Shown here in pieces: positions 8,951-31,384 of a DNA stretch of 64,000 bases. The position numbers and the translations under genes are program-made. Position 1 is the stretch's first letter. Each line of letters starts with the position of its first letter. The stretch is from Isoetes taiwanensis (lineage: Eukaryota > Streptophyta > Lycopodiopsida > Isoetales > Isoetaceae): NCBI GenBank assembly GCA_021234155.1, contig JAJEKV010000064.1, positions 5,456,001-5,520,000 on the forward strand, written 5' to 3'. Under the pieces are notes generated by a model. It was not told where the DNA came from, did not search any database, and saw nothing but the letters and a program-made list of their open reading frames with translations.

Positions 8951-8955
8951 GGCAG
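8951..8955. other. Left target-site duplication GGCAG
   Basis: GGCAG directly precedes the TG of the left LTR and is repeated directly after the CA of the right LTR at 20947-20951. This is the 5-bp duplication expected from an LTR-element integrase. Confidence 0.9.
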
Positions 8956-10562: not shown

Positions 10563-10565
10563 AAG

Positions 10566-10577
10566 TGGTATCGAAAG
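10566..10577 (+). other. Primer-binding site (initiator-Met tRNA type)
   Basis: TGGTATCGAAAG lies three bases after the left LTR. It starts with the TGGTATC typical of plant elements primed by the initiator methionine tRNA and then departs from the usual CAGAGC. Confidence 0.75.
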
Positions 10578-10729
10578 CAATGTTCTTGGAGACCAAGAGC
10601 AAAGCACCGCCATGCTCCCAAAGTACTAACTTGATAGGATTCTCGAACCTCGAAAGTGGGAAATTTTTTCTCATTTTGTAGTTTATGCTAAGCTAGTAAC
10701 AGTTAAGTGGATTGGAATTTAATATTAGC

Positions 10730-11400
10730 ACAGTTAGGTGAATTGGAACTTAATAAAACTAAAAAGAATGAGCCAGGTAAGGTGTGAGATAGGTGAATTG
10801 GAACTTAATAAAACTAAAAAGAATGAGCCAGGTAAGGTGGTCTCACAGCTCGCGCCTGGTTCAATAACTAAACTTTAAACTAAAAAGAATGAGCCAGGTA
10901 AGGTGGTCTCACAGCTCGCGCCTGGTTCAATAACTAAACTTTAGTACTAAACTTTAGTTTTGCGACGAGGCTCGCGCCTGGTTCAATAACTAAACTTTAA
11001 ACTAAAAAGAATGAGCCAGGTAAGGTGGTCTCACAGCTCGCGCCTGGTTCAATAACTAAACTTTAGTTTTGCGACAAGGCGCAAGCTGTGAGACTGGTTC
11101 AATAACTAAACTTTAGTTTTGCGACAAAGGCGCAAAAGCCGTCTCAAGCCGTGAGATCGGTGCGACGAGGCTCATACCGTTCAATAACTAAACTTTAAAC
11201 TAAAAAGAATGAGCCAGGTAAGGTGGTCTCACAGCTCGCGCCTGGTTCAATAACTAAACTTTAGTTTTGCGACAAGGCGCAAGCTGTGAGACTGGTTCAA
11301 TAACTAAACTTTAGTTTTGCGACAAGGCGCAAGCTGTGTCTCAAGCTGTGAGACTGGTTCAATAACTAAACTTTAGTTAGGCGCAAGCTGTAAGACATTG
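10730..11400 (+). repeat. Tandem array of hairpin-forming repeats
   Basis: A scrambled tandem array in which GGTTCAATAACTAAACTTTA recurs about nine times. The arms GTCTCACAGCTCGCGCC and GGCGCAAGCTGTGAGAC are near-perfect reverse complements, so each full unit folds into a hairpin with an inner AAACTTTAGTTT palindrome. Units are truncated and joined in different registers. It lies just inside the 5' LTR, where retrotransposon packaging or dimerisation signals are usually found. No function is shown. Confidence 0.85.
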
Positions 11401-11507
11401 ATGAAAACAGCTTGAAAAGTTATAGAATTTAAAAAAGTAACTTGGTAATTCGTTGATGAAAACAGCTTGAAAAGTTATAGAATTTAAAAAAGTAACTTGG
11501 TAATTCG
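11398..11507 (+). repeat. 55-bp tandem duplication
   Basis: Two adjacent copies with a period of 55 bases, each beginning TTGATGAAAACAGC and ending near GGTAATTC, apparently identical. It immediately follows the hairpin array. Confidence 0.9.
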
Positions 11508-12191
11508 AATCTTAGCCTAGGATCTAGCTAGATTAGTCTAGTTTTTCAATCTCTTTGAACCTCATCTTAAAAGGATTCCCGCAGTGGCGAATTGAACCTC
11601 CCACCCACGTGGTTGAACCCCCAAACCCCCGTACAACCAATCGAGGGCGGGCATCGTTTACGTTTGAATTATAATTCTTAATTAGATTTAAGCTTTAATA
11701 ATGTTAGATAATATTAATGGCTAAGCCTTAGATTTAGAACCAAGGCCCTTAAGCTAGATAGAGACAAAGATCTCGATAGACACCAGGACTCTGGACGACA
11801 TGATGCGCACTAAAAAACGCATCACTCGACTTTCTCGACAAGGCTAAAACAGCCGAGGCCAAGGAGGCCGAAGGAAACAAGAAGAGGAGAGGACGAACGA
11901 GAGCGGAGGCCAAGGCTCAAAAAGCGGCAGAGCGTAAGCCGGTCCAACATTTTGAAGACTCAACACTGCTACTGCTCATGCTGGCGAGTAACCCTCATGA
12001 GGGAAGGCATGTAATTAGCTAGTTTAATTAAGGGAGATCCCCAGTAGATATGTTGTAAATAATCAATAATTTTGTTAATACATGATAATTTTGAGTAGTT
12101 TATGTGTCAAATCTTGCTTAATTAGGACGAGTTAGCAAGTAGTAGTTTTTATTTTAGTAAAATAGGATACTCTCAGACCAAAAAGTGTGAT

Positions 12192-12258
12192 GTCTCACAG
12201 CTCGCGCCTTGTCAAGAAAATAAAGTTTAGTTTTTGAACGAGGCGCAACCTGTGAGAC
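12192..12258 (+). repeat. Isolated hairpin module
   Basis: GTCTCACAGCTCGCGCCT and AGGCGCAACCTGTGAGAC enclose a 31-base loop containing AAAGTTTAGTTTTT. It has the same arms as the array at 10730-11400 but stands alone about 0.8 kb downstream. Confidence 0.8.
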
Positions 12259-12405
12259 CTTCATACTTAGACCATGTCCAAACTAGACCAAAACACCTCC
12301 AAATTGACCAAGTAAGGGGTCCATTCTGCCTAACTCGATGAGACTAGCATGATTTGACCCTTAGATCACCCAAATTGGACACGTTTAACCCAATTTACAG
12401 CCAAT

Positions 12406-12472
12406 GTCTCACAGCTCGCGCCTGGTCAAAGAACTAAACTTTAGTTTTTGAGCAGGGCGCAACCTGTGAGAC
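12406..12472 (+). repeat. Isolated hairpin module, second copy
   Basis: Same arms and the same 67-base length as the module at 12192, with ACTAAACTTTAGTTTT in the loop. The sequence between the two modules is unrelated. Confidence 0.8.
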
Positions 12473-15400
12473 CTCCAAACTTTGAACCTCCATAACTTGA
12501 GCTACAGAGCTCCAAATCGTCTGAAAATTGTTGCAATAGGACCATTAGATAGCCTAGAATCCATTTATGACCTCAAATTAGGCTAGAAATGTCAAACCCT
12601 AGCTCAAATTAACCAAAATTGCCCAAACCCTTGAATTGTTCTTCCAAACTGTAGTTTGTTTGTAGATAGAAGCCTACCCCATTAGTAGCTCGCAAGTATT
12701 GCTCTCGGCTCGAAGCTGATACCTTACTCCTAGATAGAAGTGCCCAAGAACACCCCTTTGTTATAGTCATCTAGACCTCAAAGATAGCAACCCAAGTCCA
12801 ACTCAGGTTGCAGACATCACCTCTGCTCATGCCAAAGGCATAAACCTTGACCTAATTCTGTGTCCTTCTAATAGAGTTTGACTTATATAGCCGCCACATT
12901 GACACTCCCTATTGCCAGGGTACCTAGAAAGGAGCTAGAGTCTAGAACTGCCCAAGCCGCTCCATGTGTAGAGATTGGACTCCCCCCAAACCAACTTTGT
13001 TAGGACCTTAGGGTATGCCTCAAACATCATGGAGGTTTTGCAAAACAACCCTCATTTCATGCCATACCACACGTCCTAATATCCATAGACTTGTAGATTA
13101 TAGATATGTCTCCAAATCTTGCCGCCGAGCCACCTTGCTTGCTTATAGAGCCCGTATCGTTGTAGGAGAGCCCTTCAAGTAGACCTTAGACTCTAGGAAA
13201 TACGAAGTTGCTTTGCAGGCACGGGCCGAGCCACGTAAGAGCTTGAGGCGCAACTCCTTGAAGACATCAAGGTCCCAACGATGTACGCATGCATAAGGAG
13301 AGGAGACCGAAAAAGGCGCACCCAAGAGAGGGAAGCACAACGACAAACACCTCAACCGACAAACGAGTAGAACAGACACCACCGGCCTATCATCAATCTT
13401 CATCAAATGGGAAGAATAATTGGTAACCAACGGCATCAAGAATTTTCTAGGTGTCAACCTCCCGGCTACCACGACGAGGTCACATCGGAAGAGGATCTCG
13501 ACGCCACCAACTCGACGCCCACGAAGTTTCAAATGGAAGAATGCAAGGCAGCAAAATACAAAAGCGTGAACACGTTAGACATCGATGCCGCGTTAGCATC
13601 ACGAGCTAGGGTCAGAAGGCATAATCTTCCGCCGAGGGAGAAGTCATGGCAACACAGAGCGTATAAAAACCGGAGGGAAGACAACCACGACATTGCAGCC
13701 CAAAGAGCTCAAGCGAATGTCATGCAACGCCAACGAAAAGGAGTAACCAAGCTAGGCAACCACAAAGCACCTAGTAAGGCTGACCAAGATGAGCTTCTAG
13801 CTCCCTTTGCACCAGCAGGAGACCACGAGGGAGGAGACGATATCGGGAACATCTCCAACTTGAAGGCCTATATCAGCATTAGGGGCAAGATCAAGGAGGA
13901 GAATATTCGTCTTGAACAAAGAATTCGGGACCCGTAAACACCTAGAAACCAAAGGAAGGACGACCTTACTACGCCAGCCAAGGAGTGCGAGATTCGAATG
14001 GATAGGACCCAAAGGACCGGAGGAGACGACCTAGCCAGCAGATACAAATCATGCAAAGGCAACCGTAAGGAGCCATGGTAGGGACAATAGAAATGACCAC
14101 ACTTCCGTACATGTGAGAGAGGCACCTCCTAATGAAGCAAAGCCCAAGCAACAGAGTCGACTCGTAAATTCAACTCCGGAGGAATGCCAATGCCCGCCTA
14201 CGACCATGATCTCGAGAGCTTCAAGACATCCAAGAATGCCCAACCGCAACAGCCTAGGTGATCCTACTCAAGCGACCAATGGCACCAAGACATCCAAGAA
14301 CCCCGCAATGACACACCGCATGTAGGGACGCTGAGCGGTCACCGCATTCCTCACGACGAATATACATATTAAGGAGGAGCATCTTTCTCAAGGGATCACA
14401 TCGACAAACACTCTTCAAGAATCGGGCGGACGAGCTCCCGGATCAGACATGAAGCTCAACAATAGTAGCAAAGATCTCAAAGGAATCCCCGGAGTCAACC
14501 CGAACAAAGAAGATGCAAAGAAACCAAAGGGTCAAACGCGATAGGAGGAGGGGAAACCCTAAAGGAGTATAAACATTTAAGTAGATCTTCGTAGTTGTTT
14601 TGAAAAAAGTGGATGAATTAAAATCCCAATGTAAATGCGTATATGTCTATTGTATATCTCGGTGCTCACAGATACGGAGTGGAAAACATGAGTTTAGAGT
14701 CATGTTTTACTGGATTTAGCGCTTAGATCAGAAGCTCCTTCACTTCGACTACCAAAAGAGGAAGCATAGAAGCACAACTATAGCCCAAGATCAAAATGGA
14801 AGAGCAAGTACGAGGGAGAAACGACCGGGAGGCCAAGCAAACCTTCGACTCCAAACACTTCCTAGTGGCCCGGCGTAGAAGACAACTCGGCCCACCCAAT
14901 GTCGAGAATAAGAGATAATACCGGCCATGTCAAGATCATCACACCAGACGGGACATCGTCCAGACGCAACACTACATCTTGTGGCAGCAGAACACTTGAC
15001 TAACTTATGACACGAAAGGGCCTCAACAATAGAAGGAGGAACGCCTCACATCAACGAGCCAACTAAGAAGACAACATCTCGACGACCATAATTCCACCTT
15101 TGTGGTAATATAGGGGAATGCGCTTATGACACGGGGATTAGATGGAGATGCACTTACGAAAGGCACCGCGATGAGGAGATATGCCTTCAAGAACTAGGTG
15201 ATGGCTTCGCCGTACTCCTACCAAGAATTAGAAGAGAAGAAGCCGATCATATCTCCGACATGTGGCACGCCAAACGCCCAAGGTAGAAGCATTCGACACC
15301 TTAACGACAAGGATAGCAACTAAAGCACCTTCGGCAAAAAGAGAGTTCAAGATAATAGCCGCTATTCAACGACAAGAGCATATCTAAGGCGTGTACTTCT

Positions 15401-17940
15401 TCAACTCAAGGATCAAGCCGCTAGAGATATAAGGATCCATCATCCCGACAACATCGCCAAAGGAGAAGAGCCATGAAGCTTTACTTGCTAGAGAGGCCGA
15501 CATGCATAGAGAGACAAAGGTCGAACTGAAAGTCGGAGAAGTGCTAGCAACCGACTTCTTCCACGAAGCTCCCTAGAGGCAAATGAGGATCAAAACCGAC
15601 GAAAGCACAATCAAAGTCACCCGAGGGTACCTCAAGACAAGAAGACGCATAGCATGGCGGAACGTGACAATGTCCAAGCCATGTGATCGAGGGGAGCAAA
15701 CAAGGAAGATTAGAAGCTCGATGGAGAAGCATCTAGGCGAGGGCGAGCCGATGACTTGCACACGGACTTGCATGCAACTTGGTGAACCAAGGATGGACGA
15801 TTCAAAGAACAACCAAGTAGAAGAGAACAACCCGTGAGGAGTATAGCCAAAGGAATCGCAAGACACGACCTCAAGAGACGCCTCCAAATAGTTTCAAGTA
15901 TCAAAGGGAGGAACAATTACCGCCCAAAAACAGATCGTGAAGCGGGCAAACGTCGAAGCATCAACGACCACCACACACCTTTAATTAGAAAGTGATGCAA
16001 AGCGTGTTGTGCCATAGCCGACAAACATCTGAGGGCCCGGACATATCAACAAATTACCCCCTGAGTACGAAAGCCAACGTACAAATAGGAGGATATAGAT
16101 CGTCAACACCATTGCACCCGGAGGAACACCGATGACATCACCAAGGAGTAGGTGTGCAACTTGAAGGGAGGCACAAGGGAGACCTAATGGCTCTAGTGGT
16201 AATTGTAATTAGGTAAGCTATATGTTTTGCATGTATAGTTCCCTTTGTTATTCCTTCCTTCCCATAGCGCAATGCATCAAAGGAAGAGATGTCGGCAATT
16301 GCGGGGCGACAAAGAGGACTCAACGTATGAGACATCGATGGAGTCAAGAAACAATATCGGATCTGAGAGTCGCCCTTTAGCTGCCAAGACAAAGAGTTCA
16401 AGATGAAAGATCTTTTTCAACTACCCATCTTCGTGCTTTTGAAAAGCGGCATGGAAGATTCAAGTGATCAACTACACCATCAGGCCACCAAAGAATGAGA
16501 GCCTTCTAACGAACAAAGTCAACCTCTACATCAAAGAGGAGCCACCGTCAAGGAGACCAAGTATCGAAATTACTCGGAAGAACGCTACCTTGCTACTTCA
16601 AGCAGTAACGAAGTGGATGAGCTTCTAGCAAGCTCAAGGATCTAAGGCCATGGGGCCTAGTAGGTTAATGTATGGACTAACATCCATATTGGGATTAAAA
16701 GGCATTTCCGTGATATTCCGCTAAAGGATTGCCCCAATATTGAGCTAAGCGTCAAGGATTGGGAAGGAAATGCATAGGAGTAACTATAATTATACACGAT
16801 TGTTAACGCACATCCAACGTATTGAAACCACTTGGTGAGATTGATCTCCTCGCTAAGAAGGAATCATTACTAGGATAATTGTTAACCATGTATAAATCTA
16901 GTACCTCCAAGAATAATCCAACCGAAAAGAAAAGAAGTAATCTAACAAGTCCGCCAACTTGTTACGATGACATCAATTCGATTGGTAGGAATATTCCAAG
17001 AGCTAAATAACTAAGAAAGGGGAATCTCTAGAATATAAAAGAATAATACATGCAAGGTACATCTAAAATAAGAATTATAGTAATCAAATAGTCTTTTTGA
17101 GACAAAAGGAATTGTCATGATGACAAAACCTTGTGGTTTAGAATCGCTTCTAACTAAGTAAGTAACCCATAGCTATATTGAAATAAATGATAACATAATA
17201 TGTGCATCCATCTTAGATGGTTATATATGTTAGCTAAGGCTAGTAAATTAATGTGCTAAGTAAGAAGCATATAACCTCTTAAGGGAGAGAATAGATATGA
17301 TGTTGTGTACAACGCATTGAAGGGGTGCGGAGACCATTTTCTTTTTGAAGAAAGTGGGAGGGCTCAATCTTATGATTGAACGTGCTTGCATCGAATTGAT
17401 TGACCCAGAATAGAGTTCACTCCGCAAATGGCGGCTTAATAGAGCGCAAGATAGATAGATAGATAGCTCGAGGGTCTTCAACGTGCGAGACTGACGCAGT
17501 AGCTATCTACACCAATGAAGTGGAGCAAAAACTATGGGAGCAATGCAACGACCAAGTCATCTCCAAATTACTCGACGCCGGCTCAATGGGTGGATGCATT
17601 CTAGCCTAGGTAAGGCGTACGCATGCATTATAAGCTTTAATGTGTCTTATAAATAAGTTAAATATAGATCCTAATAATTGCATGGAATTACTGTACGTAT
17701 ATGTATCATACGGAAATAAGTTAAATAACAACGATAATGTGAGGTAGCATGTTAATTAATCCTTCGCAAGGATGCAATTCCTTCCAAGGATAGCCATATG
17801 ACCTTGGGGTCCTTATAAATATAGATAGAAAATAGAATTCAAATATACTTAAGTGCATCTTAGGGATATACTTCCAAGGGTAATGCAGGACCCAAGGAAG
17901 AGAATAAGAAGCACATCTAATTCTTGTGTATGATAATTAA
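12473..17940. other. Interior of the LARD, no recognisable protein
   Basis: About 5.5 kb without a gag, protease, reverse transcriptase or integrase motif. The longest plus frame (13407-13937, 176 codons) is rich in Lys, Arg, Glu and Asp and could be a relic of a gag-like protein, but I see no zinc knuckle or conserved block. Overlapping frames on the other strand are equally long. A short GATA run lies at about 17450. Confidence 0.6.
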
Positions 17941-17949
17941 AACCTTGTC

Positions 17950-19230
17950 TATGTAACAATAGGTCTAAAATCGGGGTTATTGTTCAAATAATCGCGATCT
18001 AAAAGTCGTTAAATATTGCAAAGCTTAGAGTAAATATAATTGTACCATCTAAGTAATGTATCCTGGTGTACTATGATAATGTTAATTCATAAATATTACC
18101 TTAGGGTAATTATGTTAATCACATGCATTAAAGGAGCCAAAGAAAAATCGGCTCGGGCATGTCGCTTTGTGTGTAGATTAAATGCTTGTATAGTTAAGAT
18201 TAATCTACGCATGCAACCTATGCTAGGTAGGGGTTGCATGCGTTGTTACCGATGATGAGACCACTACAGTGATCTCTAGGGCGTGGTGTAATGTCAATGT
18301 AGGCATGACCGCGTTTCCGCTTGGACGAGTGGAAGGTAGATTAGAAAGTCTACTGGTCCCACCCGCGAGTAGACGACCTCGAGAGAAAGGAGGTCATTCA
18401 GAATGCATTGATAGGAAAGGCACCTTTAGCCCCATATATGCTTTGATAGGAGGAAGCTATCCTTCACGCCCCACGCCGAAGGATATCCTCCACGCCGGGC
18501 AACTAGAGGTGTAGGCATGAGCGCATATAGGCATATAGGCCGCCTCCACGCCATAATGGAAGATTCACCCTCTTCCTAACGGAGATTTAGCCATGCATCC
18601 ATGTAGATAGGTGGGGTGGTCACCATATAACCAAAATTTTATTAATAATTAAAATAGTAATAACGTGGGTCGACCTGCAGGCCAAAAGAGCTCCGAGGGC
18701 AAGGAGGTCGAAGACGAAAACTTGCAAACACAAATTTAGTCATAATGTGTTGCAAGGGATGAAGAGTACCTTAGAAGTGTAAATTTTGTATGAAATTGAT
18801 AAACTTTGATAAACTTAAATGTTGTGTTAAGTAAGGTTAATAATTACCTTGCGTAGATTAAGTTATGAAGTGATAAGTTAATTGGGTAATGAAATAGTAC
18901 AAAGAATGTCTTAAACATTACCTTAGAGTAATTCTAATAATTAAGATAGTAAGTATGTAATTATAGATATTGTAAAATTAATGCAGGATTTTAAGGTGCG
19001 AGGACTTGCAACACAAATTTTGTTTGAATGTGTTGCAAGGAATGAAGAGTACCTTAAATAATAATTGTATATGAAAGTGTTAAATTGTGATAAACTAAAT
19101 GTTATAATAACGAGGACTAATAAGTACCCCGCTTAATAGAAGTTACTTAATTGACAAGTTATTTGATAATGTAATGGCGTAATAATAATTTAAAAATATT
19201 ACCTTAAGGTAATCTTAATAAATGTGTAAG
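17950..19230 (+). repeat. Degenerate repeat units, about 285 bp
   Basis: Two diverged copies (about 18715-18970 and 19003-19230) share, in order, a CTTGCAA-CACAAATTT segment, GTGTTGCAAGG-ATGAAGAGTACCTTA, a GATAAACT-AAATGTT segment, and ATTACCTTA-GGTAAT. A third partial copy, with the ATTACCTTAGGGTAAT end, lies near 18090-18110. This is an old tandem expansion in the 3' half of the LARD. Confidence 0.65.
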
Positions 19231-19323
19231 TATAATAGTAGTATATCGTATGCATCGTGGTTGATTGCGGGTTAGGAAGATTCCAAGGTGGGGACCCCCG
19301 ATGTCGCTGACAAAGATCATTTC

Positions 19324-19334
19324 AAGGTGGAGAA
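19324..19334 (+). other. Polypurine tract
   Basis: AAGGTGGAGAA, all purine except one T, lies directly against the TG of the right LTR. This is the position of the plus-strand primer of LTR elements. Confidence 0.7.
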
Positions 19335-20946
19335 TGTGGCGTTCCAAACACGAAGATACGGTCTCGGGACGATAATCGTCTTGTCTTAATCGCCGCATTA
19401 CCCACCCAACCGACGCGGTAATCTGCGCCGACGTGTAGCCAGTGAGTAGCCCTAGGGGCAACTTGCTAGGTATGTGCATTTCTTATTAATGTGCACATGC
19501 ACATTTATTAAGGTGCACACATTTCCATGTGGGCACATTTAGGTGCACACATTTCCATGTAGGCACATTTGGCCACCTAGCCATTAAAGGCAAGTGGGCC
19601 CATTTCCAATTATCCCACATGCCTAAAGGGATAATTGGAAACCCTAAGCCCCAACCCTTGCCTATTTAAGTAGAAGAACCCTAACTTGCCCATTTTCGTT
19701 CCTAGGGTTTTAGAGCTCGCTTTGGCTGCTCTAGGAGTCAAAACCGCCTCCCGGACTGCCCCAGAGAATGGCACCATTAGTTTCCCTTGATTCGAAAGCA
19801 GTTCAAGGGATGGTCGAACTCGGTCCGAGGAGCAACTCTTGGATCAGGTATGTAGTCGATTTAATGGTCTAAACCGTTTTCCAGTCATTGTATCAGTAGG
19901 TTTAGCCTATTAAATCGCCTTTAGCAGCTATCTAGATCTCTAGATGAGTAGATACTAGACTCTAACTAAAGAACCTAACTCTATGATATAGATTAGATCT
20001 ATGTTCTTTAGTTCTTCTGTGATGTATATGGATGATGTATCTCTGTGAACTCCTTGTATTGGGAAGGGGGGTAGAGACTTCAAGCTTGGTAGTAGATGCT
20101 CCTAGATTAGCCTCTCTAGCACACCATAGATTCGCCTTTAGGCACAAGAGCCACACACGGTTGTGGGTGAAGGGGCCGACCGGGCTTATAAGGAGGTTCG
20201 TGTTCTGACTCTTGAACGATCCCTATGGTGTGTTAGTGCTACCGGGGATCATTGTGACTAGGTCCAATGGCTTGCCACTGCGTGTGGGCAAGGCATGGGC
20301 TCGACACTCGTGAGGTGGTGGATATGACCTTCCATTGAGTTCAAGTCGAATACGGGCAGTGGCCCTCTAGTCACCTTGAGTCAGCATGTAGATCTGAGGG
20401 AGTGATCCCTACCGCCCCATCGAACCGGGGAGATGAAACCCGTGAATAGCCCTTTTGGCTATGCATCCCATGGGCTACTGCCGAGTCCCAACACTTTTCA
20501 GCCTACTCGCAAAAGTGTGCACGGGAGGGGCGGATGGAGTGGACAACCCTATGCCATGTTCTTATGCCGCCCAAATCCATTGCCATGAATTCTGCGCCCA
20601 ATGAACTCAACGGAGACCCAAGCCGTCAGTCATCCCTTTGAGTCTGAGCCTTGGGTAGGATTCCCTATGTGATGTGCTGATCTTTGTCTATGCAGATATG
20701 TGGAGGACCATCCTTCGTGATGGTCATATGATGTTGATGTATGTACTACTGACATGTATGTTCACGCTTCCGCAGCTAGGTAGGCCCTGAGGGAGACAGG
20801 GTAAAGGACCCCTTCATTCTTCCCACTGGAACTCTTCAAGGTTGCAGTGATACGTGGAGGGCCCTATATTAGCATGGAGCTGGTATGGGGGATGAACTCC
20901 TGTTTGTATACGGTGAGTGCACCGTATATGAGTAGGGGACGTCACA
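19335..20946 (+). repeat. 3' LTR
   Basis: Starts TGTGGCGTTCCA and ends GACGTCACA. It has the same TATTTAAG box, at 19663-19670. It matches the 5' LTR throughout, with scattered substitutions and single-base indels. It is followed by GGCAG, the right copy of the target duplication. Confidence 0.9.
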
Positions 20947-21139
20947 GGCAGTATTAGGCTTGGATTCAATTTCCAATTAGAAAAGCATGTACTGGACAAA
21001 ATATTAGTCGAAGTTATATTCAATACAATATAATAACAAATGAAATTTGAGTTGGTTATATTCGAGAAGTTAATAATAATATTGTTTAGCAAGTTGCAAA
21101 TGATGTGTTTGTTTATGAGTGGTTTTGCTTTCTACATTG

Positions 21140-22449
21140 TTAGATTTTGTTTCTCTTTTTGAGAAACCAATACTTTTTTGTTTTGGATGGGTTGGCTAGT
21201 AAATTGTTGTAGCCCGTAGTGGTGGTTTCTTGTTGTTGGATTATTTCTTTTTCTAATTGGTTTGCTTTTTGTTTGTTGGTGGTTGTGTGAAGGAGTTGAA
21301 TCTCGAAATGATCATGGAATGGTTTGTAGGTGGCAATATCTTGGGACATCTTTTTGTTCGGCGTTGTTTGATGACGACGTAATCGTGCCTTGACGTTTGT
21401 AGTTTGGCCTATATAGGTTTTGTCGTTTTGTTTGCACCGGATCGAGTATATCGTTATTAACTTGCCTGTTCTCGAGAAAGAAACATTTCAATGATTTGAT
21501 GTTTCTAATAATTGTTTATTGTAATAGCACTTGCTTTTAATTGTTTATTTCAAATATTGTTATTGTTTTTGTTGTTGATTGTCAAAATTGTTTTCCGTTC
21601 ATGATATAAAACTCAAACTTGTCAAAAGTTTAGGAAAAATAAGAAAGTGATGATGTTTATTTACTTTTTATTGGCGGGTCCGGATAAAAATCTATATTTC
21701 CAAAGAGCTCGACCGCCAGGGTTTTGTCAATTGTGTAAGTTACTTTTTCAATCGTTAGTGGATGACTGTCTGATGAATGGGTGTGGTCGTATAGGGACAT
21801 CAGTTTTTGCATCATGGTCTGTGCCGTTTTCTTGGATAGAGATGTTAGAGCATCAATGGAGACGTTGTATCCGTAGTGTAATATGCTCGCCTGGTATGGA
21901 TTTATTGATGTGGAGGTGGTTGAGTTGCAGGCTGTCGCTAGCGCCAGTGCGCCTTGTGATTTGGTAAGGGTCGAGTAGTCAAGGTCGGCGTTTCTTTGGC
22001 GAAGTATATGCTTGAGTAGACCTGCACGAGTTATAGATCCTGGTTAGTTCAATATTACACACGTGGAAGTTAAGTTGTTTGAGTGCAAAAAACCTTCAGC
22101 AGGGGGTTCTTTGTGTTGCTCCTCGAACTTGATTTTTTCATCTTTTGCCTTGTTTCTAAATTCGTCTAGTTCCTCCTGTGTTTGCCATCCGTGAACGTAA
22201 TCTCGCGGTTCTACTCCGCATAGGTTCATGTATCTCATCGTTGAACTCGTCAAGGTCAAGGTTGTTGATTTTGACGTGGATGATTTCTTTTTTTTGGCGA
22301 CTTCTTCTTTCTTGATTTCGTCAAAAAAAACTTTCCAGACCTGCGCAAGAGGAGTTGTTATTGTCTTGAATGATTGTTGGTGTATTGGGGTTATGTTGGC
22401 TTACCTCGCTTGTTTGTGCTCGCTTCTTGTTTCTAGTTTGGTGATCCAT
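21140..22449 (-). CDS. Four-exon gene with C-terminal GIY-YIG nuclease domain
   Basis: I assembled this model by hand. The exons are 22449-22405, 22340-22094, 22021-21665 and 21465-21140, all with GT-AG introns. Donors are GTAAGC, GTTTTT and GTAAAT; intron phases are 0, 1 and 1, and every junction keeps the frame. The protein is 324 residues and starts MDHQTRNKKRAQTSE. A Lys-rich stretch follows at about 22-40. Residues 98-216 are an unrecognised domain. Residues 217-324 are GIY-YIG-like: TIY (221-223, in place of GIY), TYIGQT (233-238), Arg244 and His248 in RLRRH, Glu288 in LEKEII, and a later GYN. This fold makes nicks or double-strand breaks in group I intron endonucleases, UvrC, SLX1 and Penelope-like retroelements. 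The gene lies 82 bases downstream of the Helitron helicase stop, same strand. It could be Helitron cargo, a resident accessory gene, or an unrelated neighbour. Confidence 0.8.
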
Positions 22450-22530: not shown

Positions 22531-23955
22531 CTATATCAGTGTCTTGTTGGGTTGGAAGTCATGTATAGTGATGGGTTTGACTATTCTCAGTTGAGAACGC
22601 TTCTTGACTCTTGATAGCATGACGTAGAGAAGGCCTGGTGAGAAGGCTTTTCTCACTACAATTATAGCATTGCCATCTATTGTGCCACCTTGTGACTTGT
22701 GGGCAGTCATCGCGTAACACAAGGCCAATGGGAAGGTTTTTTTGTAATAATATTGTCCATTGTGGTACTTGTGTTCAACCTTTGTCCTCCTTAGTTCGAC
22801 GTATTGCAAGCTATCATTGACATGGCATATTATTGATTTAACTTTGCTTGTGTTTGCGTGGACGTCGATGTATGCAACTATGCCAGTTGTTCCATTTGCT
22901 AGTGACGATGAAATGTCAATGTTTGATGTTATCATCACCTTGCAACCCACTGCAATGCAAGGTAGTTCTTGGAATGTTGGTTCTGCAAGCCATGCTTCCA
23001 ACCCATTGATTCCTGTTGCATTTGTTTCTATCTCAACTGGAATGATTTGAATTGGTTGAAATAATTTGTGCATGGTGTAGTTGTTGAAGAAGTTGACATC
23101 TTCATGGTGGGTACATAGGACAATGGTGTTTTGGTCGATGCATGTTAGAGCAGCATTTTGTTCAACAATTGTGTCTTTTAGGGTGTCGAGGAGTTCTTTC
23201 TCGGTTGGATGTCTGAATCTTATGATGTTTAAAAATTCAGAATATTCGATGTCATTTGAGTGCCGTATTGATGTTTGGAGATGGTATTTCTTTGCTTGTT
23301 GGAAGTGTAAGGAGTTTGACAATGGGCAAGTAGCACAAGTAGAATTCTTTTGTTTTTTATGACGACAAATTGGTGGCAATTGGGCGTGGTCTCCAACTAG
23401 TATGATGCACCTGGTAGCAATTATTTCTTGTATGGGGGTGCGTGTAACCTCAGAGACTTGTCGAAGTATCATGTTTAATGTAATGGTGGTTAGCATGGAC
23501 ATTTCATCAACTATTAGTGCATCAAAAGTGTTTATTTGTTGGTATCTTATGTCTGTTCTTTGTATGGTGTGGGGCCACTGGTTCCTTGTGGGGATTGCGA
23601 ATTGATGATGTACTGTCACTGCCTGTCTTGATATTCTGCAGGCTGCTATGCCAGTAGTTGCAGTGACAATGGGTCGTTTCCCTATTTGAATGTAGTGTCG
23701 TAGCAAGTGTTTGATCAAAAATGTTTTGCCTGAGCCTGGTGCTCCTGATAGAACGTGGATGCCTGTAGGAACATTGCATAATACTGAGAACACGATTTCT
23801 TGTTCGGATGTTAATGTGCTGTTATGTATCTCTGAGAAGTTGTCTTTGAAGTAAGTTTGAGGTAAGTTGTCTTGTTCTTCTATGTTGGGTGACGTCGTTG
23901 TGTGGTCTAGCAATGGATTTAGCCTTTGCAAGATGCCATTCAAAATCTGTGTTTG
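22531..23955 (-). CDS. Helitron Pif1-type helicase part
   Basis: This is the C-terminal half of the Helitron transposase, a superfamily 1 DNA helicase of the Pif1 group that unwinds the donor strand during rolling-circle transposition. In order: Walker A GAPGSGKT, Walker B LIVDEMSM, GDHAQLPPI (motif III), TAHKSQGGT (motif V), and YVMLSRV (motif VI) before the C-terminus. All key residues are present. It is in the same frame as the Rep part and separated from it only by a TAG at 23958-23956. No ATG lies at its beginning, so on its own it would need read-through, or it is dead downstream of the stop. Confidence 0.9.
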   Translation of the reverse strand, partial: QTQILNGILQRLNPLLDHTTTSPNIEEQDNLPQTYFKDNFSEIHNSTLTSEQEIVFSVLCNVPTGIHVLSGAPGSGKTFLIKHLLRHYIQIGKRPIVTATTGIAACRISRQAVTVHHQFAIPTRNQWPHTIQRTDIRYQQINTFDALIVDEMSMLTTITLNMILRQVSEVTRTPIQEIIATRCIILVGDHAQLPPICRHKKQKNSTCATCPLSNSLHFQQAKKYHLQTSIRHSNDIEYSEFLNIIRFRHPTEKELLDTLKDTIVEQNAALTCIDQNTIVLCTHHEDVNFFNNYTMHKLFQPIQIIPVEIETNATGINGLEAWLAEPTFQELPCIAVGCKVMITSNIDISSSLANGTTGIVAYIDVHANTSKVKSIICHVNDSLQYVELRRTKVEHKYHNGQYYYKKTFPLALCYAMTAHKSQGGTIDGNAIIVVRKAFSPGLLYVMLSRVKKRSQLRIVKPITIHDFQPNKTLI

Positions 23956-26535
23956 CTACTCGCTTTGTAGTAGGTGGTATTCGGTGTACTTCTGGATGTA
24001 TTGCAGGATGTCGTCATCGTTGTTTATAAGCCCGCGGATTTGGCATTCTATAAAATAGCATGATTTGGAATTTTGGCTTGATATCAGATGATTTTCTTGG
24101 GTAAATGGCACTTCTGCTAATAGAATGTTATAGAAGAACCCCTCAAAGTGATGCAATGGATGGTAGTCTGTAAAGCGAACTATATTTTTTGATGGTATAA
24201 TTTTATTGCCATAGTTGTCGATGCCAATGGCATCTAGTCTGTAGCTTTTCGGCGCAAGTTGGTATTTTTTCCAATATTCTTTGAATGTTATTTGTTGAAA
24301 GCTTTGAGGTCTAGCACAATAGAGGTCAACAGGATGTAAAGTTGCTGTAGATCCTTTTGACACAATTCTTTGTCGTGATGATGGAGGTGATGTGTCTATA
24401 TATTGTACTTTTTCTGATCTTTGTATGGATGGGATCTGTAGGCATGTTAGTGTTGCTTCTGTAGCCGAGATTGGCTTTGTCAGTAGCATAGCAGAGATAA
24501 TTTTGCACTTTGTGTCATCAAGGTTGGTTATGCCTAGTTTTCTTATATCGTCAATGTTCAAGACGAGGTTGCCGTACGGTTCACACTTCATGGCATACTT
24601 TAGCAAGTAGTAGGACCAGCATCCATCTGTTACTCTTTGAATATTCATGTGTGCTCCCCATAAAGACAATATAGTGGGATGGTATGGCACAATGCGCTCA
24701 TGTTGGATCCCAGGTCTATGGTATATCCAACGTTGGTTTTGTTGGTCAAGTTCAGCTGTAGCAGAGTAATGTGGAGGGAAAGGAAATCCATACTTGCATT
24801 GCTTTACATGAGAGTACTTGTAACATGATGGTCTACATGTATGGATTTGTTTTTGCAACACAAGGCCTTGCAATCTCTGTGAAAAGTAATCAGTACTTGC
24901 ATTTGGAATGACGGCATCTATCTCATTCGTTACTCTATCAATATCTTGACATGATACCCAGAGGACAATATGGGCATGCAATGAATGCCTATTTTGAACT
25001 TCGTATCTCAAAACATAATGGAGAACATTGCCAATTATTCCGTTTTCACAAAGTATGTAATTTTTTAGGAACATTTGCATCCTAACATGGAACAACACTG
25101 CGCATTCAACTGGGCAATCTGCCCAGGTTAATGTTTCATCAATCTCTTTAATGATTTTTTCAATATCAGATATCTCCGTCCACCTTGTGCTGCTCACCTC
25201 GTCTGCAGTTAGTGTGAGGAAGAATGATGGAATTCCCCAGTATTCTACCATAGCTAACATGTCTTTAAGGTGCTTTCTATGCCATGACGGTGAGTTTGGG
25301 ATTGTTTTTGGCACTATGAATTTAAGCACATGACGTAGACAATCTTCTTCACTGGAGGCTGGGTGTGTCCTCCTATATTCTATCATGTCCTTTTCCAAAC
25401 AACATCTATTTAGTGACCTTGCTATAAGAGAAGCTTGTCTGACCTGGTACATCATTAGGAGATATGGTTTGTACAAAGTGTATACTGAGAACATACAGCT
25501 GATTCTTTGCTTTAAGTATTCAAATATGCCTTCCTTCTCATCATAGCTTCCAGTACCATGTGGAAATAAAAAAGGGAACATGCACATCTCTAATGTCAAT
25601 GGCAAGTCAGATACTCTGTTGTCTATTGTTGTACCAGTCAATGTCATATATCTCGCGACTTGTGTTAGATTGCCCCCATCTCTCTTTGACAATGTCGGGA
25701 GCTCGTACATCTCATGTTTTGAGAAAGTGTCTGATGACCCATTTTGTGTTACATCTTCCAATATTGAAAATCCCCTTGTGTTTGCTGTCTCCATTGCAAT
25801 GTATGGTCTTGTAACAGCATATTGGTCAGCAATTTTTTGTATTACATTGACAGACATGATACTTATTCCGGTTGTTGGATTTGGTCTTTCATACAGTGTT
25901 AGGAATTTTTTCACAAAAGGATTGTGCACCAATAGGTATCCCAATAAAGATCGTATGCTCGCTTCATGGTTGGCATCCATTGGAAGATCAATCATGTCAC
26001 CCCATGCCATGAGTGGGTTTTCTAGCAATGATCTGTTGCAATGAGTTCCAAATGCAATGCTATTATATTTCTTCACTACAATGGATACATCGACGAGCGA
26101 CAACATTTGTGTGTAAAAGATGGGAAGCATCAAGAGTTGACGGATGTACGCTGGACTAAACGATGAGTTGCGGTTGGATCGCCTTGGATTTTTATTGCAA
26201 CTTGAGCATACTTTGCAGCAGAGCCCATTTCTTATCAAGTAATGGTAAAGGAAAGGATTGCATATGCTGAGGGCAGGCACATCGTCAGTTAGGGGTTCCC
26301 ATGGATCTGGTTCAAATACCCATGCGTTGTAATATGAAGTATTGCTGCATATGCCACAAACGTGGAGTGAATGCACTGTTTTTGTGGTGATTCCACTCCA
26401 ACTTTCATGGTATTTGGTTATTTCTAGCCATGAGTCTGCGCTTGGTTGTAGATGTATCTTTCTAAGTTTTCGTCTGTTTTCTTTTGCATTAAGACACTTG
26501 CGTTTCATGGCTATTTTTTTGGAACTAGTGGCCAT
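23956..26535 (-). CDS. Helitron Rep (HUH) part
   Basis: This is the N-terminal half of the Helitron RepHel protein, 859 residues from the ATG at 26535 (MATSSKK) to a TAG at 23956. Upstream in-frame codons exist but no earlier ATG. The N-terminus holds cysteine pairs (HVCGIC, CCKVCSSC), as in the zinc-finger-like region of plant Helitrons. The nicking centre is visible: FFLTLTADEV, then the HUH motif in HSLHAHIVLW (about 24959-24988), then the tyrosine region YYLLKYAMKCEPYG (about 24567-24615), which bonds to the DNA 5' end. If the TAG were absent or read through, the whole RepHel would be 1334 residues, a normal size. I see no frameshift in either half. Confidence 0.92.
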   Translation of the reverse strand: MATSSKKIAMKRKCLNAKENRRKLRKIHLQPSADSWLEITKYHESWSGITTKTVHSLHVCGICSNTSYYNAWVFEPDPWEPLTDDVPALSICNPFLYHYLIRNGLCCKVCSSCNKNPRRSNRNSSFSPAYIRQLLMLPIFYTQMLSLVDVSIVVKKYNSIAFGTHCNRSLLENPLMAWGDMIDLPMDANHEASIRSLLGYLLVHNPFVKKFLTLYERPNPTTGISIMSVNVIQKIADQYAVTRPYIAMETANTRGFSILEDVTQNGSSDTFSKHEMYELPTLSKRDGGNLTQVARYMTLTGTTIDNRVSDLPLTLEMCMFPFLFPHGTGSYDEKEGIFEYLKQRISCMFSVYTLYKPYLLMMYQVRQASLIARSLNRCCLEKDMIEYRRTHPASSEEDCLRHVLKFIVPKTIPNSPSWHRKHLKDMLAMVEYWGIPSFFLTLTADEVSSTRWTEISDIEKIIKEIDETLTWADCPVECAVLFHVRMQMFLKNYILCENGIIGNVLHYVLRYEVQNRHSLHAHIVLWVSCQDIDRVTNEIDAVIPNASTDYFSQRLQGLVLQKQIHTCRPSCYKYSHVKQCKYGFPFPPHYSATAELDQQNQRWIYHRPGIQHERIVPYHPTILSLWGAHMNIQRVTDGCWSYYLLKYAMKCEPYGNLVLNIDDIRKLGITNLDDTKCKIISAMLLTKPISATEATLTCLQIPSIQRSEKVQYIDTSPPSSRQRIVSKGSTATLHPVDLYCARPQSFQQITFKEYWKKYQLAPKSYRLDAIGIDNYGNKIIPSKNIVRFTDYHPLHHFEGFFYNILLAEVPFTQENHLISSQNSKSCYFIECQIRGLINNDDDILQYIQKYTEYHLLQSE

Positions 26536-26879
26536 TGTCTGCAATGAACTATGGAATCTATTATTTTTTATTTATTTTTTTAACTATATACATATAATGA
26601 CATTATTATGTTTAGGAAGGAAGGTTTCTTCTTTTCACAACATACCTTGAACGCTTCAAGTCCAATGAAGACAATAGGTATAGAATCTGAAAAATTACAT
26701 TTACGTTTGCAATTACAAAAATGTTTAATACTATTACTCATATATTACTCGTTGATCTCTCATTCTCATTCTCATTCTCATTCTTAAAATTCTAAATATG
26801 ATGTTCATTAAGGTTGATGATTATATTCATGTGAATTTAGTTAAGGTTCATTGAAATTCTAAAAGTCCAATATGAAAAT

Positions 26880-26928
26880 ATGTATTTTAAAAAAAACATC
26901 TTGCGAGTACAATGAAACTAGCATTTTT
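26880..26928. repeat. 49-bp direct repeat, inner copy
   Basis: Runs from ATGTATTTT, through eight A residues and CATCTTGCGAG, to CTAGCATTTTT. It is identical to 27073-27121. The 144 bases between the copies hold the Helitron 5'-terminal sequence. Confidence 0.9.
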
Positions 26929-27073
26929 CAAAGCCATTAACAAGAGGCGTGCCAAAAATGCTATGTTGGTGACACAAAACTGTAAATCGAACGAAGCAAA
27001 ATAAAAGAAAAAAATCGACGGCTAAAATCGCGCACAGACTATCACAAAACGGCTTTATTATTATATATATAGA
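26929..27073 (-). other. Helitron 5' terminal region
   Basis: Read on the minus strand it opens TCTATATATATAATAATAAA, then GCCGTTTTGTGATAGTC and a T-rich stretch, preceded by A at 27074. This is the typical A|TC 5' boundary of plant Helitrons. It is bounded on both sides by the 49-bp direct repeat. Confidence 0.7.
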
Positions 27074-27121
27074 TGTATTTTAAAAAAAACATCTTGCGAG
27101 TACAATGAAACTAGCATTTTT
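27073..27121. repeat. 49-bp direct repeat, outer copy
   Basis: Identical to 26880-26928. It begins at the proposed Helitron 5' end, so it is host flank by this model, yet the same flank sequence recurs inside the element. Confidence 0.9.
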
Positions 27122-28084
27122 TGTACAGTAAAACAAAAGGAGGAATTTTGAGCTGAAGCTTATCCATAACACCAGCAACCACAAAATATGTGTGAAACTT
27201 TGAATATTAGAGAACAATTAAGAATGATATGCCATCCATGAAAAAACATAAAAGTACACCATGAAGTGTCACCTTCTTATCCTTTCTTGATATCACATTG
27301 TTCAACTCAATGAAAGAAGGCATGCTTATTATAGAGGAAGTTGATTGTAAGCAAAACCAACTAACAATTATAAGCTGTTGATTTAAAAAGTTGTCATTGA
27401 GCTGGGACATTGATGAACCCCGCACTCTGAATGGGCAACTTCTTAGAGAACAATAAACTTATGAGCTACATGATGTGGCACATTGTCAATTGGGTGTAGT
27501 AAAAACTTCTCTTCAATCTGCAGAGAGATTTTCTACTTTGACTTTGATACCTTTAAAGTTCCATTCAGAAAGATGGAAAATCCATTTCATGTGCACTACA
27601 GCTCTTCAATGACAGTATGCAATTACAGCGAGAAGAGTGGACATGCATGCAACAGCAGGGGCAAAGACCTTAGTGAAGTTGACTTCCTATATGAGCACAC
27701 CTTTTGCAACAAGCCAATTGTTACACTTCCTAAATATAACAGCAAAATGGCGCTCGTTCTGAAGGACATTTAATACCCACAACATTTATATGATCATGGC
27801 TAGTCATCATGAGTGTAATAATGGTTGCTGAAGATCACCACACTCTGCTCCAAATAGAAAACGAAACTTTCTCTCACTCAGCACTTTATACAATGAAATT
27901 CTCTTACACCCACTTTATACGGTGAAATTCTAGGTGGATGGCTATGTCAATTTTTACAAATCTGCATCTAGATTATATTAATTTGACAGCTGAGTTGGGT
28001 GTTTGTTCTGCTCTGCCATATTGAAACAGAAAGATAACCGCTTATCTGGTAACCAAGTTGATTGTTATAAAACTGCTCTACCTT
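27122..28084. other. Non-coding, no gene recognised
   Basis: AT-rich sequence. A plus frame at 27483-27773 (96 codons) and a minus frame at 27207-27425 show no domain I recognise. No repeats or termini stand out, apart from the Helitron flank at the left. Confidence 0.4.
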
Positions 28085-28860
28085 TATTTAACAGACAGCG
28101 TCCTTGACAAGCTGGGTAATTGTTCAACCTTAACAGACCTGCACAGAGTTACATTTGTGGACTTTGTGATTTATGTGCCAAAATATCTGCAAATAGGGAA
28201 GGGAGGCCTTCTCGGCTTTTTGAAGACCATAAAATAGATGGTCAGTCTGTTTTAACAGTTTGACAGACAGCGTCCTTGTCAATTCCAATAGCTTTACAGG
28301 CAGCATTTTTGAATGCCTCATACCTCAGTTCCAATAATTTTACAGGCAGCATTTCTGAAGGGCAGTAACTAGGCATATTTATACCTCAGTTCCAGTAACT
28401 TTACAGCCATTGGATATGCAGTTCCTGATGAGCTATACAAACGAAAGCTTAGGAGTTGGCATGGGAACAAGGCTTCCTCCAGGTCATGCAGCAGGGAGGC
28501 AAAAAACATGATTGCATCTAGATTATATTGTTCTAAAACTGCTCTACTCTTGTACGCCTATACCTTTATACTAACAGTTTGACAGACAGCGTCCTTGACA
28601 AGATGGGCAATTGTTCTGCTCTCACAGTTTTGTGCCTCAATTCCAATAACTTTACAGGCAGCATTCCTGAAGGGCTGTAACTAGGCATACTTATGCTTCA
28701 GTTCCACCAACTTTACAGACATATTTAGACCTCACTTCGAATAACTTTCTGGCAGCATTCCTAAAGAGCTGGGTAATTGTTCTGCTCTTGATTGGTTAGA
28801 CCTCAGTTACGCTGAATTCAATAAACTAGAAACTTAGGAAGTGTTAGCACTATAAACCAC
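28085..28860 (+). pseudogene. Decayed leucine-rich-repeat receptor-kinase fragments
   Basis: Several pieces translate as plant LRRs: NSLTDSVLDKMGNCSALTV followed by CLNSNNFTGSIPEGL and a stop (28578-28682), with degenerate copies near 28088, 28255, 28330, 28640 and 28745. The LGNCS and NNFTGSIPE words are typical of the ectodomain of LRR receptor kinases that bind peptides or steroids. Only repeats are visible. No signal peptide, membrane segment or kinase domain is found, and stops and frame changes are frequent. Confidence 0.75.
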
Positions 28861-28967
28861 TAGGCATGTAGCAATGTTTTTTTCCTTGAAATGCGTCGAG
28901 AAATACATTTAAAAATTGCACAGGATGGATTGGAGGCTGACATCTCTACAGCAAACAGCTTAATTCA

Positions 28968-29240
28968 CATATGACTTAGGGGGATAACTGGAGATGCCAT
29001 TACTGTGGTTTATATTAACAGCTTAATTCACATGTATGTGAATTGTGGCTCTCTTGCAGAGGAACAAGAAGTTTTCAACAAGCTCAGTATTCCAATGTCG
29101 AATGTGGGCTTTGTTGGAAAGCATTAAAATGTTATGAACAGATGGAACTTAGGGGGATAACTGGAGATGCCATTACTGTGGTTTATGTTTTGAACAGATG
29201 GAACTTAGGGGGATAACTGGAGATGCCATTACTGTGCTAA
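28968..29240 (+). pseudogene. Decayed PPR protein fragment with local triplication
   Basis: NSLIHMYVNCGSLAEEQEVF (about 29017-29076) matches the plant pentatricopeptide consensus for an organellar RNA-binding protein. A second stretch, CYEQMELRGITGDAITV, starts near 29130. The word ACTTAGGGGGATAACTGG and its continuation occur three times (about 28975, 29149 and 29198), so a small duplication has scrambled the remnant. No complete PPR gene is present. Confidence 0.7.
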
Positions 29241-31384
29241 TATCAAGTTATGCAGTACTTCTGAAATTTCCTTCAACTGGAGAAACCCAAGAATACTGAA
29301 GCGGATTCCAGAAGTGAGTGGATTTCAAGTACATGAATATAATAACTAATTTCAATCTTTCAAGCTTTGTGGTCATAGAAGTACAGCATCATAATTTGGG
29401 AGGGATATCATGCTGAAATCAATAAGCTAGAAACGTAGGAAGTGTTAGCACTATAAACCACTATTGATTGGAACGGCTTCACACATGCTGTTTCATCGAT
29501 TTAGCATGTTGGTGTGGTGATTTATGCCCATGGAACTGTATTAGTAGCAAAACTCATTTTATAAATGGAATGATCCCATTTGAAATTGAGAAAAACATTT
29601 CTCTCTATTCTTTACCTAAAAAAGGCACTTACCAATATAAGGATCAGGATGTATCTTTTTCGCTAATTCTGCCTCCCCTGATAGTACAATCCTCCCTATT
29701 GTTCTCAAATCATTCTAGAACAAGTTGAAGGAAATTTTATAAGAATAACCGAATGGCAAAAGAAACAGGTTAAATCAAAGGCATCTTAAAGCAAATACAG
29801 AATGGCAAAAGAAACAGGTTAAACCAAAGGGCCGATTAAGTCATAAATTTGCTCAAACGAACAAGAGAGGAAAGAACAAAACAATCATGGTCTGAAGGCG
29901 ACAAGGGATATAGATTCCAAACAAATAGAATCAGATTGATGATGAAGAAGTATAAAGCGGGGGTTTTCGGCTTCGCTTCTGGGGAGGGAATCATAATCTA
30001 AAATGTAAATGAGAAGGCATTAAATGCTCTGAGAAACAAGCAGCTATGGTGAACAAAACGGATTAGCCCAAGGTCTCAGTCTTACTAGTAAGGATCGGAT
30101 TCAAAGAATGCTAATTGACGAATGCTAACAAAACAGTTCAGAGGACGAATTGTCAGATTTAAAGGGAAAACTTATCATGGAATTGTACCTCCAACTCTAG
30201 ACGAAGAACGAAAATGCCAGACGACCGACTACCTTCCTTCAAATCAAGGCGACGGTTCCCTATAGCAATAAGAAAGCTAATTTCGCTGGCCCTTCGTTTT
30301 ATTAGATCAACATCGAATGGTTTAAAATAGGTCCAGCTCATTTTTCATGACACGTGGATAGGCTAAGGTTCGAGATAATGTGTCGCCCGAGGTTAGGCTG
30401 TTGCGCTAAAAAAAAAGAGAGAGAGAGATGGTTACTGACGGAAACATGGATGGATTTAAACTCCAAACCCTTAATCATGGATGGGGAGGAATTTCCCAGA
30501 GGGCCGTAAAGATTATTGTTCTTGTATGTGCTGCAAGAACTATTATTAGTTCTTATTTTGCTGGAGCATGGCAACGGAAGGAAGAGGAGATTATCATTTT
30601 GGAGATCACAAGAAGATATTTGGATTATCCTAATGGAGTAAAGGCCTTTATACATGAAGGGAAATCATATGATTTCAATATTAGAGCAGTTAATGGAACT
30701 GAGATGGATTTGGTGACTATTGTTGCAAGCGAATCTGAAGCATCAGTAGCAGAGAAAACTCGGTGCTTTTGTGGAGAATGCTCGAAGTATATGGACCGAC
30801 TTGTTGTGAACGAGTTCGGATTATTGGGGAAACTTCTATGATCCTTTGGGGATTATGGAATAATAAGGGTGACTGCTAGGTTGTCGTGGAAAAGCTTGTC
30901 ATGGAGACAAATAGCTTGTCATGGAGACAAGTAAACCACTGTTGCAAAACATTGAGCTCTGCTTTGTCATAATAGCCAAACTACCCGCCATAACCTCTTG
31001 CCATCTCTAGAAGTTCATCTTGGTCATTTGAGCCTGCGTAAATTCCAACTTTTAAGCCTGAGTATGGAGAACTGCAAAAGCATCCCGCTTGGGATTGCGG
31101 AGTCAGATCGTGGTGATCTGAGAGACTAATTCGTCATGGCGGTCATCTATATAAATATTTGACTTGGGAAGTCATCTATATTAACACTTGAACTTATTTG
31201 CAGGTTTGCTTAGTGTTAAGCATTGGGGAGGACACTTTACGTAAAAGCTGTCAAGGATGTGGACGCAAAATTTGGATGCGGAATCTCAAATTGTTTCCTA
31301 TGGGACAGGCTTATGGGTAAAGTTCCTAAGTTGAATTTCTTTATTTGGAATAAAGGATAGATACTTTTGTGTATACCCATGGTA
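29241..31384. other. Non-coding or unrecognised, one open frame of interest
   Basis: No recognised gene. The plus frame 30428-30841 (137 codons, starting MVTDGN) is the most coding-like. It has an FNIRAVNGTEMDLV stretch and a CFCGECSKYMD cluster of cysteines but no family I know. An overlapping minus frame at 30338-30655 makes its coding status uncertain. A short AG run precedes it at 30413. Confidence 0.4.

Follow-up and report, generated by a model that had tools for sequence, protein, structure and literature searches.

The window analysed here is a stretch of 64,000 nucleotides from Isoetes taiwanensis. It contains a Helitron-type element whose Rep-helicase is followed, 81 bases beyond the helicase stop (22531), by the start of a spliced gene for a GIY-YIG nuclease. 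An LTR retrotransposon is nested in the element. The main features are as follows, with coordinates in the window.

30396 to 30413, minus strand: element 5' terminus, a T-run then AGCGCAACAGCC; core GCGCAACAG one base past the T-run
26536 to 30395, minus strand: 5' region ahead of Rep; fragments in it are common to copies C1078 and C1079, partly reordered (blastn)
23956 to 26535, minus strand: Rep (HUH) part of the Rep-helicase (PF14214 Helitron_like_N, 3.9e-24), ending at the stop 23956-23958
22531 to 23955, minus strand: Pif1-type helicase part of the Rep-helicase (PF05970 PIF1, 3.5e-21)
22405 to 22449, minus strand: GIY-YIG gene exon 1, from the splice model and comparison with other families
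22094 to 22340, minus strand: GIY-YIG gene exon 2, from the splice model and comparison with other families
21665 to 22021, minus strand: GIY-YIG gene exon 3, a conserved domain without Pfam match (YQASILH.GYN ... LA.ELFGN.DF)
21140 to 21465, minus strand: GIY-YIG gene exon 4, nuclease domain and stop (PF01541, I-TevI profile match, fold match)
8956 to 20946, plus strand: LTR retrotransposon nested in the Helitron, about 12 kb, target duplication GGCAG
8923 to 8955, minus strand: element 3' terminus, CTCCTGTTGCGCCTTTTTGCTAG to 8923, then a T-run at 8922-8907; inverted-repeat core CTGTTGCGC

The GIY-YIG gene and its product

The Rep (HUH) domain and the Pif1-type helicase, both identified by the Pfam matches listed above, place the element in the Helitron superfamily. 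An earlier picture of the Rep-helicase as one frame does not hold for the window copy, which is broken by a single stop at 23956-23958 into 871 and 474 codons, counted stop to stop. Copy C1079 does not have this stop; its Rep-helicase contains two other stops and 13 inserted columns. No AP-endonuclease family is found among the Pfam matches listed for the two Rep-helicase frames (2/2 and 25/27).

When the window sequence is spliced, the four exons of the GIY-YIG gene have GT-AG borders and form an open frame of 324 codons. The original prediction of this gene structure proved real, and the intron places are kept in other families. Introns 2 and 3 of the window copy contain in-frame stops when the frame is carried on from the preceding exon, and so must be removed to make the 324-codon protein. 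Judged by the conservation of introns and frame and by dN/dS, the frame is far beyond chance, and a chance frame was ruled out.

Exon 4 matches the GIY-YIG family PF01541 with an E-value of 8.6e-13 and 48.8 bits, above the curated cut-off of 22.6. It contains the TIY and YIG motifs, R27, H31, E71 and N86 (numbering of the 107-residue domain). Among 21 domain sequences, Y17, G19, R27, H31 and N86 are invariant, and Y6 and E71 are present in at least 90%. When a profile built from them was compared with the PDB, I-TevI matched at 1.3e-4. The tyrosines including Y6, the YxG, H31 and the N of GYN are aligned in both I-TevI rows, and R27 and E75 are aligned, each in the row where I-TevI is unmutated at that place. 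In I-TevI the residues so aligned make up the active site. The nuclease domain was modelled with AlphaFold (pLDDT 76). In a Foldseek search of the PDB with this model, I-TevI is the top match (prob 0.98-0.99, TM 0.57-0.62) and UvrC is next; SLX1-SLX4 and UvrC are among the weaker matches, and no fold match reaches E 0.001. By its score and its active-site Y, YxG, R, E and N, exon 4 is recognized as a GIY-YIG domain with the active-site residues kept, as had been predicted for the last exon.

Exon 3 is different. It had been noted that residues 98-216 match nothing, and our searches agree: the window exon has no Pfam match at E 1, and the exon-3 profile has no PDB match at E 5. Exon 3 of other members gives scattered weak Pfam matches, one member each. 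It encodes a conserved domain that is apparently all-helical, judged by a model of the N-terminal part that is of low confidence (pLDDT 57). No relative of the nuclease or the N-terminal domain was found in viral contigs at the search sensitivity used.

Termini and families of the element

The genome of Isoetes taiwanensis (1,658,258,908 bases, 1110 contigs) was searched for further copies. A DNA search with the GIY-YIG gene gave 51 matches, the window's own included; four others are 90-96% identical over at least 93% of the gene. Family 1 is defined as the window copy (W) and 12 copies read with their flanks (n=13), and includes C22 and C917, which are only about 75% identical. The homology of these copies to the window breaks off at common points (blastn). 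The ends derived from them are a T-run and AGCGCAACAG at the 5' end, and CTGTTGCGCCTTTTTGCTAG and T at the 3' end.

The 5' start is common to W and five other family-1 copies, and their upstream flanks differ. The T-run is followed by AGCGCAACAGCCTAACC in W, C1079, C1078, C1030a and C1045, and by the same sequence with one letter changed in C930. The start of C1030b, which lies 60 kb away from C1030a, is decayed; the flank resembles that of C1030a, so the two may be one insertion. The same 3' end is also found with differing flanks in other copies. W, C1079 and C1078 end in CTGTTGCGCCTTTTTGCTAG then T, and C1034 and C917 carry changed versions of it. The last letters are changed in C930 and C1030a, and the 3' end of C22 is shortened.

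The gene lies between both termini in 5/13 family-1 copies (W, C1078, C1079, C930, C1030a). In the remaining copies one end is decayed, absent or outside the fetched stretch. The 3' end is found beyond the gene in 8/13 copies, three of these ends being altered or shortened. Most copies read are decayed, and the gene is fully open in W and C1078 only. Other copies might have ended before the gene, which would have placed it outside the element. This did not come true: the ends are found outside the gene, and an element ending before it was ruled out. In independent insertions the gene is enclosed by the element's own termini.

Between the gene and the 3' end sits the nested LTR retrotransposon, which explains the location of the element's 3' end at 8923. 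Its LTRs are about 1.6 kb long and about 92-95% identical, and the GGCAG duplication is found at 8951-8955 and 20947-20951. Without it the element measures about 9.5 kb. On the other side of the 3' end, LINE-like sequence extends from about 6900 to 8922 (limits set by eye) and includes a reverse transcriptase frame at 7883-8344 on the plus strand. Its poly-A abuts the Helitron 3' end, which suggests that the Helitron may have inserted in an A-run. A target duplication of the LINE was sought next to the 3' end and not found. Farther out, an open frame of glycosyl hydrolase family 17 at 1798-2982 is probably an ordinary plant gene. Among 22 of the 24 window ORFs of at least 150 aa, the only reverse transcriptase match is the one at 7883-8344, outside the termini. 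A Penelope origin was ruled out, as no reverse transcriptase is seen inside the element among the frames scanned.

In the 5' part of the element, repeats at 28000-29460, which by eye resemble decayed leucine-rich-repeat coding sequence, are partly common to C1078 and C1079 and rearranged; they are possibly captured gene fragments inside the element. A 59-base direct repeat at 26870-27121 surrounds a stretch starting TCTATATATATAATAATAAAGCC, which is similar to the 5' terminus of canonical plant Helitrons. A canonical 5' start near 27073, picked by eye, was rejected, as the shared start is at about 30408.

Two further families were identified by a protein search of the genome with the nuclease domain, in which 150 of 677 candidate places were scored and 30 loci taken. 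Two groups account for 19 of the 30, with 52-57% (12 loci) and 47-50% (7 loci) domain identity to the window. Their N-terminal exon pieces are 33-60% identical to the window's, mostly 41-52%. L035 and L049 are examples of the two families, each with three introns at the same places as in the window. Introns 1-3 are at these places with GT-AG borders in L035, L043, L044, L049 and L054, while L053 has lost one acceptor; intron lengths differ from the window's. The four-exon frames are fully open in L035, L049 and L054. The helicase C-terminus is located directly upstream, with 68-75% identity, at 7/19 loci (L035, L036, L040, L044, L049, L053, L054). Other helicase parts are upstream in L043, L051 and L058 (3/19), and no helicase is found within the 1.5 kb read upstream in 9/19. 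Across the three families, the helicase end is just upstream of the gene wherever it is readable intact.

Behind the gene, 16/19 family 2-3 loci have a 3' end that reads TTGCTAG, with TT following; in the other three, similarity stops before this end. The end sequences are CTTCTGGTGTGCCTCTTGCTAG, in changed form in L058, and CCTCTGGCGTGCCTTTTTGCTAG. Each of the 16 flanks starts with TT followed by T-rich sequence. Beyond this the flanks differ, except in L042 and L051, where the T-rich stretch behind the 3' end is followed by the 5' end of another such element, head to tail. The family-2-type inverted repeats are GCACACCAG, from these 5' ends, and CTGGTGTGC. The pairs GCGCAACAG/CTGTTGCGC and GCACACCAG/CTGGTGTGC change together between families, as expected of paired ends. 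A fourth domain type, 39.5% identical and with a similar C-terminal tail, is present at L059; neither N-terminal exons nor a clear helicase was found in the 1.4 kb upstream of it.

The ends also bear on classification. Canonical Helitrons (Helitron1) have a 5' TC and insert between A and T; here a T-run then AGCGC is found in 6 copies. The CTRR 3' end of Helitron1 is present as CTAG in the 16/19 family 2-3 loci and in W, C1079, C1078, C1034, C917 and C22, and is altered in C930 and C1030a. The 3' flank begins with T in 22/22 CTAG ends read. Judged from the flanks, insertion is at T-runs: TT is found in 16/16 in families 2-3 and in 4/6 family-1 CTAG ends, the other two having TG. Asymmetric terminal inverted repeats, typical of Helitron2 and Helentrons, are present in family 1 and in the family-2-type ends. 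Helitron2 is reported to have such repeats, hairpins, and insertion between TTTT and T or C (PMC5148889). Five end sequences (61-73 bases) were folded; no terminal hairpin was found, and in general they fold no better than shuffled sequences (z -0.36 to 1.77). The element appears Helitron2-like by its ends and target. We do not file it as a proven member of Helitron2, because hairpins were not found and the assignment is based on ends and target, not on Rep phylogeny.

Selection and association with the helicase

Selection on the gene was estimated as dN/dS from Nei-Gojobori counts, given as point values. The family-1 set contains 12 copies and 66 pairs; C907 was excluded, its gene being broken up across more than 3 kb. 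The GIY-YIG gene gives 0.090 for W-C1078 and 0.134 for W-C1079, and 0.13-0.15 for W to C22 and C917. Values are at or below 0.52 in 64/66 pairs. The exceptions, C1044-C1030b (0.69) and C1030a-C1044 (1.08), are all decayed copies. For C1078 and C1079, no exon taken by itself reaches 0.4, and the shifted frames lie between 1.8 and 7.1. Across all 8 copies compared, shifted frames span 0.79 to 7.1. Within families 2 and 3, six pairs have values of 0.09-0.32. The Rep-helicase gives 0.18 for W-C1079, with 1.05 and 1.53 in shifted frames. These values indicate that the gene is under purifying selection and is constrained like the Rep-helicase.

The association of the two genes extends over the genome. 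With the helicase part as query and 90 of 1641 candidates scored, 103 matches were obtained, which merged to 79 loci. A GIY-YIG match is located within 12 kb at 37/79 of these, against about 0.17 expected from random placement. The nuclease is downstream on the same strand at 28 loci, upstream on the other strand at 7 and convergent at 2. The seven with the nuclease upstream (C1018:33534362, C1025:1125626, C1039:7335777, C1053:5933199, C68:210300, C907:10112102, C957:685495) are perhaps families with another gene order. At the other 42/79 helicase loci, none of the listed nuclease matches falls within 12 kb; the nuclease and helicase counts are lower bounds, so these loci are partly sampling gaps. 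Long open helicase frames are found among them (C974:8799216, C995:677851), and some such loci may truly be without the nuclease gene. GIY-YIG and helicase distances rise together over 10 loci, with an r of 0.97 that mostly reflects the three families. By these distances, the divergence of the gene among the three families parallels that of the helicase.

Role of the nuclease and related systems

The comparisons above indicate that several Helitron families of this plant carry their own conserved GIY-YIG gene beside the Rep-helicase. The gene is very probably an old resident second gene of a Helitron2-like lineage; its product would be a nickase or double-strand cutter acting with the Rep-helicase. 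The original prediction had left room for either a nuclease cargo or a resident accessory gene. The resident part is supported by the shared termini, the occurrence in three families and the purifying selection; the cargo part is not. Cargo would mean a captured host gene carried passively, like the gene fragments of plant Helitrons. Helitrons often capture gene pieces (PMC6431247), and shuffled fragments are present in the 5' part of this element. However, the same intron plan and frame are kept in three families about 50% diverged, and the same slot before the 3' end in 16/19 family 2-3 loci. Passive cargo would decay and be family-specific. It is already contradicted by the purifying selection within each family and the divergence parallel to the helicase, and we regard it as highly improbable.

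Alternatively, the gene could encode a selfish endonuclease of the homing type, a parasite that passes from copy to copy of the transposon without helping it to move. The nearest solved fold is that of the homing endonuclease I-TevI, and spread in the form of a free-standing homing gene is common among GIY-YIG genes. Such spread does not fit the divergence parallel to the helicase over 10 loci, nor the slot beside the helicase, which is kept where the helicase end is readable (7/19 loci). This origin is improbable, although, given the seven loci with the nuclease upstream on the other strand, exchange may have occurred over longer times. A role like that of SLX1 is harder to set aside. The protein would then be a structure-selective nuclease that resolves branched or circular rolling-circle intermediates and has no part in target choice. 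The weaker fold matches include SLX1-SLX4 and UvrC, and T-run insertion is reported for Helitron2 without a nuclease (PMC5148889, PMC4067079). The best matches, however, are to I-TevI and not to SLX1, and we consider this role rather unlikely.

In the reading we favor, the transposon itself encodes a nickase (or an enzyme that cuts both strands) as a partner of the Rep-helicase. Its likeliest step would be to nick the DNA at the T-rich flank or the target, with the N-terminal helical domain supplying DNA or Rep binding. The next likeliest step would be the clearing of branched rolling-circle intermediates, as by SLX1. Nicking at the T-rich flank or target is proposed tentatively, by analogy with the Helentron AP-endonuclease, which is fused to the Rep-helicase and was proposed to nick poly-T (PMC4067079). 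The main argument against it is the T-run insertion of Helitron2, described as a Rep-helicase without endonuclease (PMC4067079); a nuclease is thus not needed for T-run targeting.

The finding bears on target cutting by eukaryotic rolling-circle transposons and on the reason for the extra endonuclease that some of them bear. Selection has kept a nuclease of a second, unrelated kind in such elements, which argues for the extra cut as a real need of Helitron2-like transposition. The lineage may have recruited this nuclease independently of Helentrons, for nicking at its T-rich donor flank or target. Helitron2-like elements would then evolve repeatedly towards the use of two nucleases, and the N-terminal domain would serve as a new module for DNA or Rep binding; we hold this possibility at somewhat less than even. 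The compact GIY-YIG protein offers a means to test the need for the extra cut, and exon 3 offers a new conserved domain.

The catalytic domain resembles that of I-TevI and other GIY-YIG homing endonucleases in its nearest solved fold and in the order of active-site residues. In I-TevI the nuclease domain comes first and the DNA-binding part behind. Here, by contrast, the nuclease domain is C-terminal, follows a new helical domain and is encoded inside a transposon. The element itself is similar to Helitron2 of Chlamydomonas and Fusarium (PMC5148889, PMC4067079) in its Rep-helicase, asymmetric inverted repeats and T-run insertion. It differs in the separate, spliced GIY-YIG gene behind the Rep-helicase, and in the hairpins, which are reported for Helitron2 and were not found in the five ends folded here. 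With Helentrons it shares rolling-circle transposition, an added nuclease, T-rich sites and a variable number of flanking Ts (PMC4067079). Unlike the Helentron enzyme, a fused CR1-type AP-endonuclease, the nuclease here is of the GIY-YIG type and is encoded by a separate gene with introns.

A literature search that covered few subscription papers found no GIY-YIG gene described in a Helitron or Helentron, which is not proof of absence. The added Helitron domains named in one review are RPA, OTU protease and AP-endonuclease, and GIY-YIG is assigned there to Penelope-like elements and Terminons (PMC6431247). These are likewise eukaryotic transposons with a GIY-YIG endonuclease, but they are described as retroelements with reverse transcriptase, and none belonging to our element is seen. 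One mariner, PGv-1, is a DNA transposon with a separate GIY-YIG gene, similar to our element in this respect; it is described as virus-integrated, with a mariner transposase and without a Rep-helicase (PMC3627910). With the present element, Rep-helicase DNA transposons join the few kinds of eukaryotic element that have a GIY-YIG enzyme.
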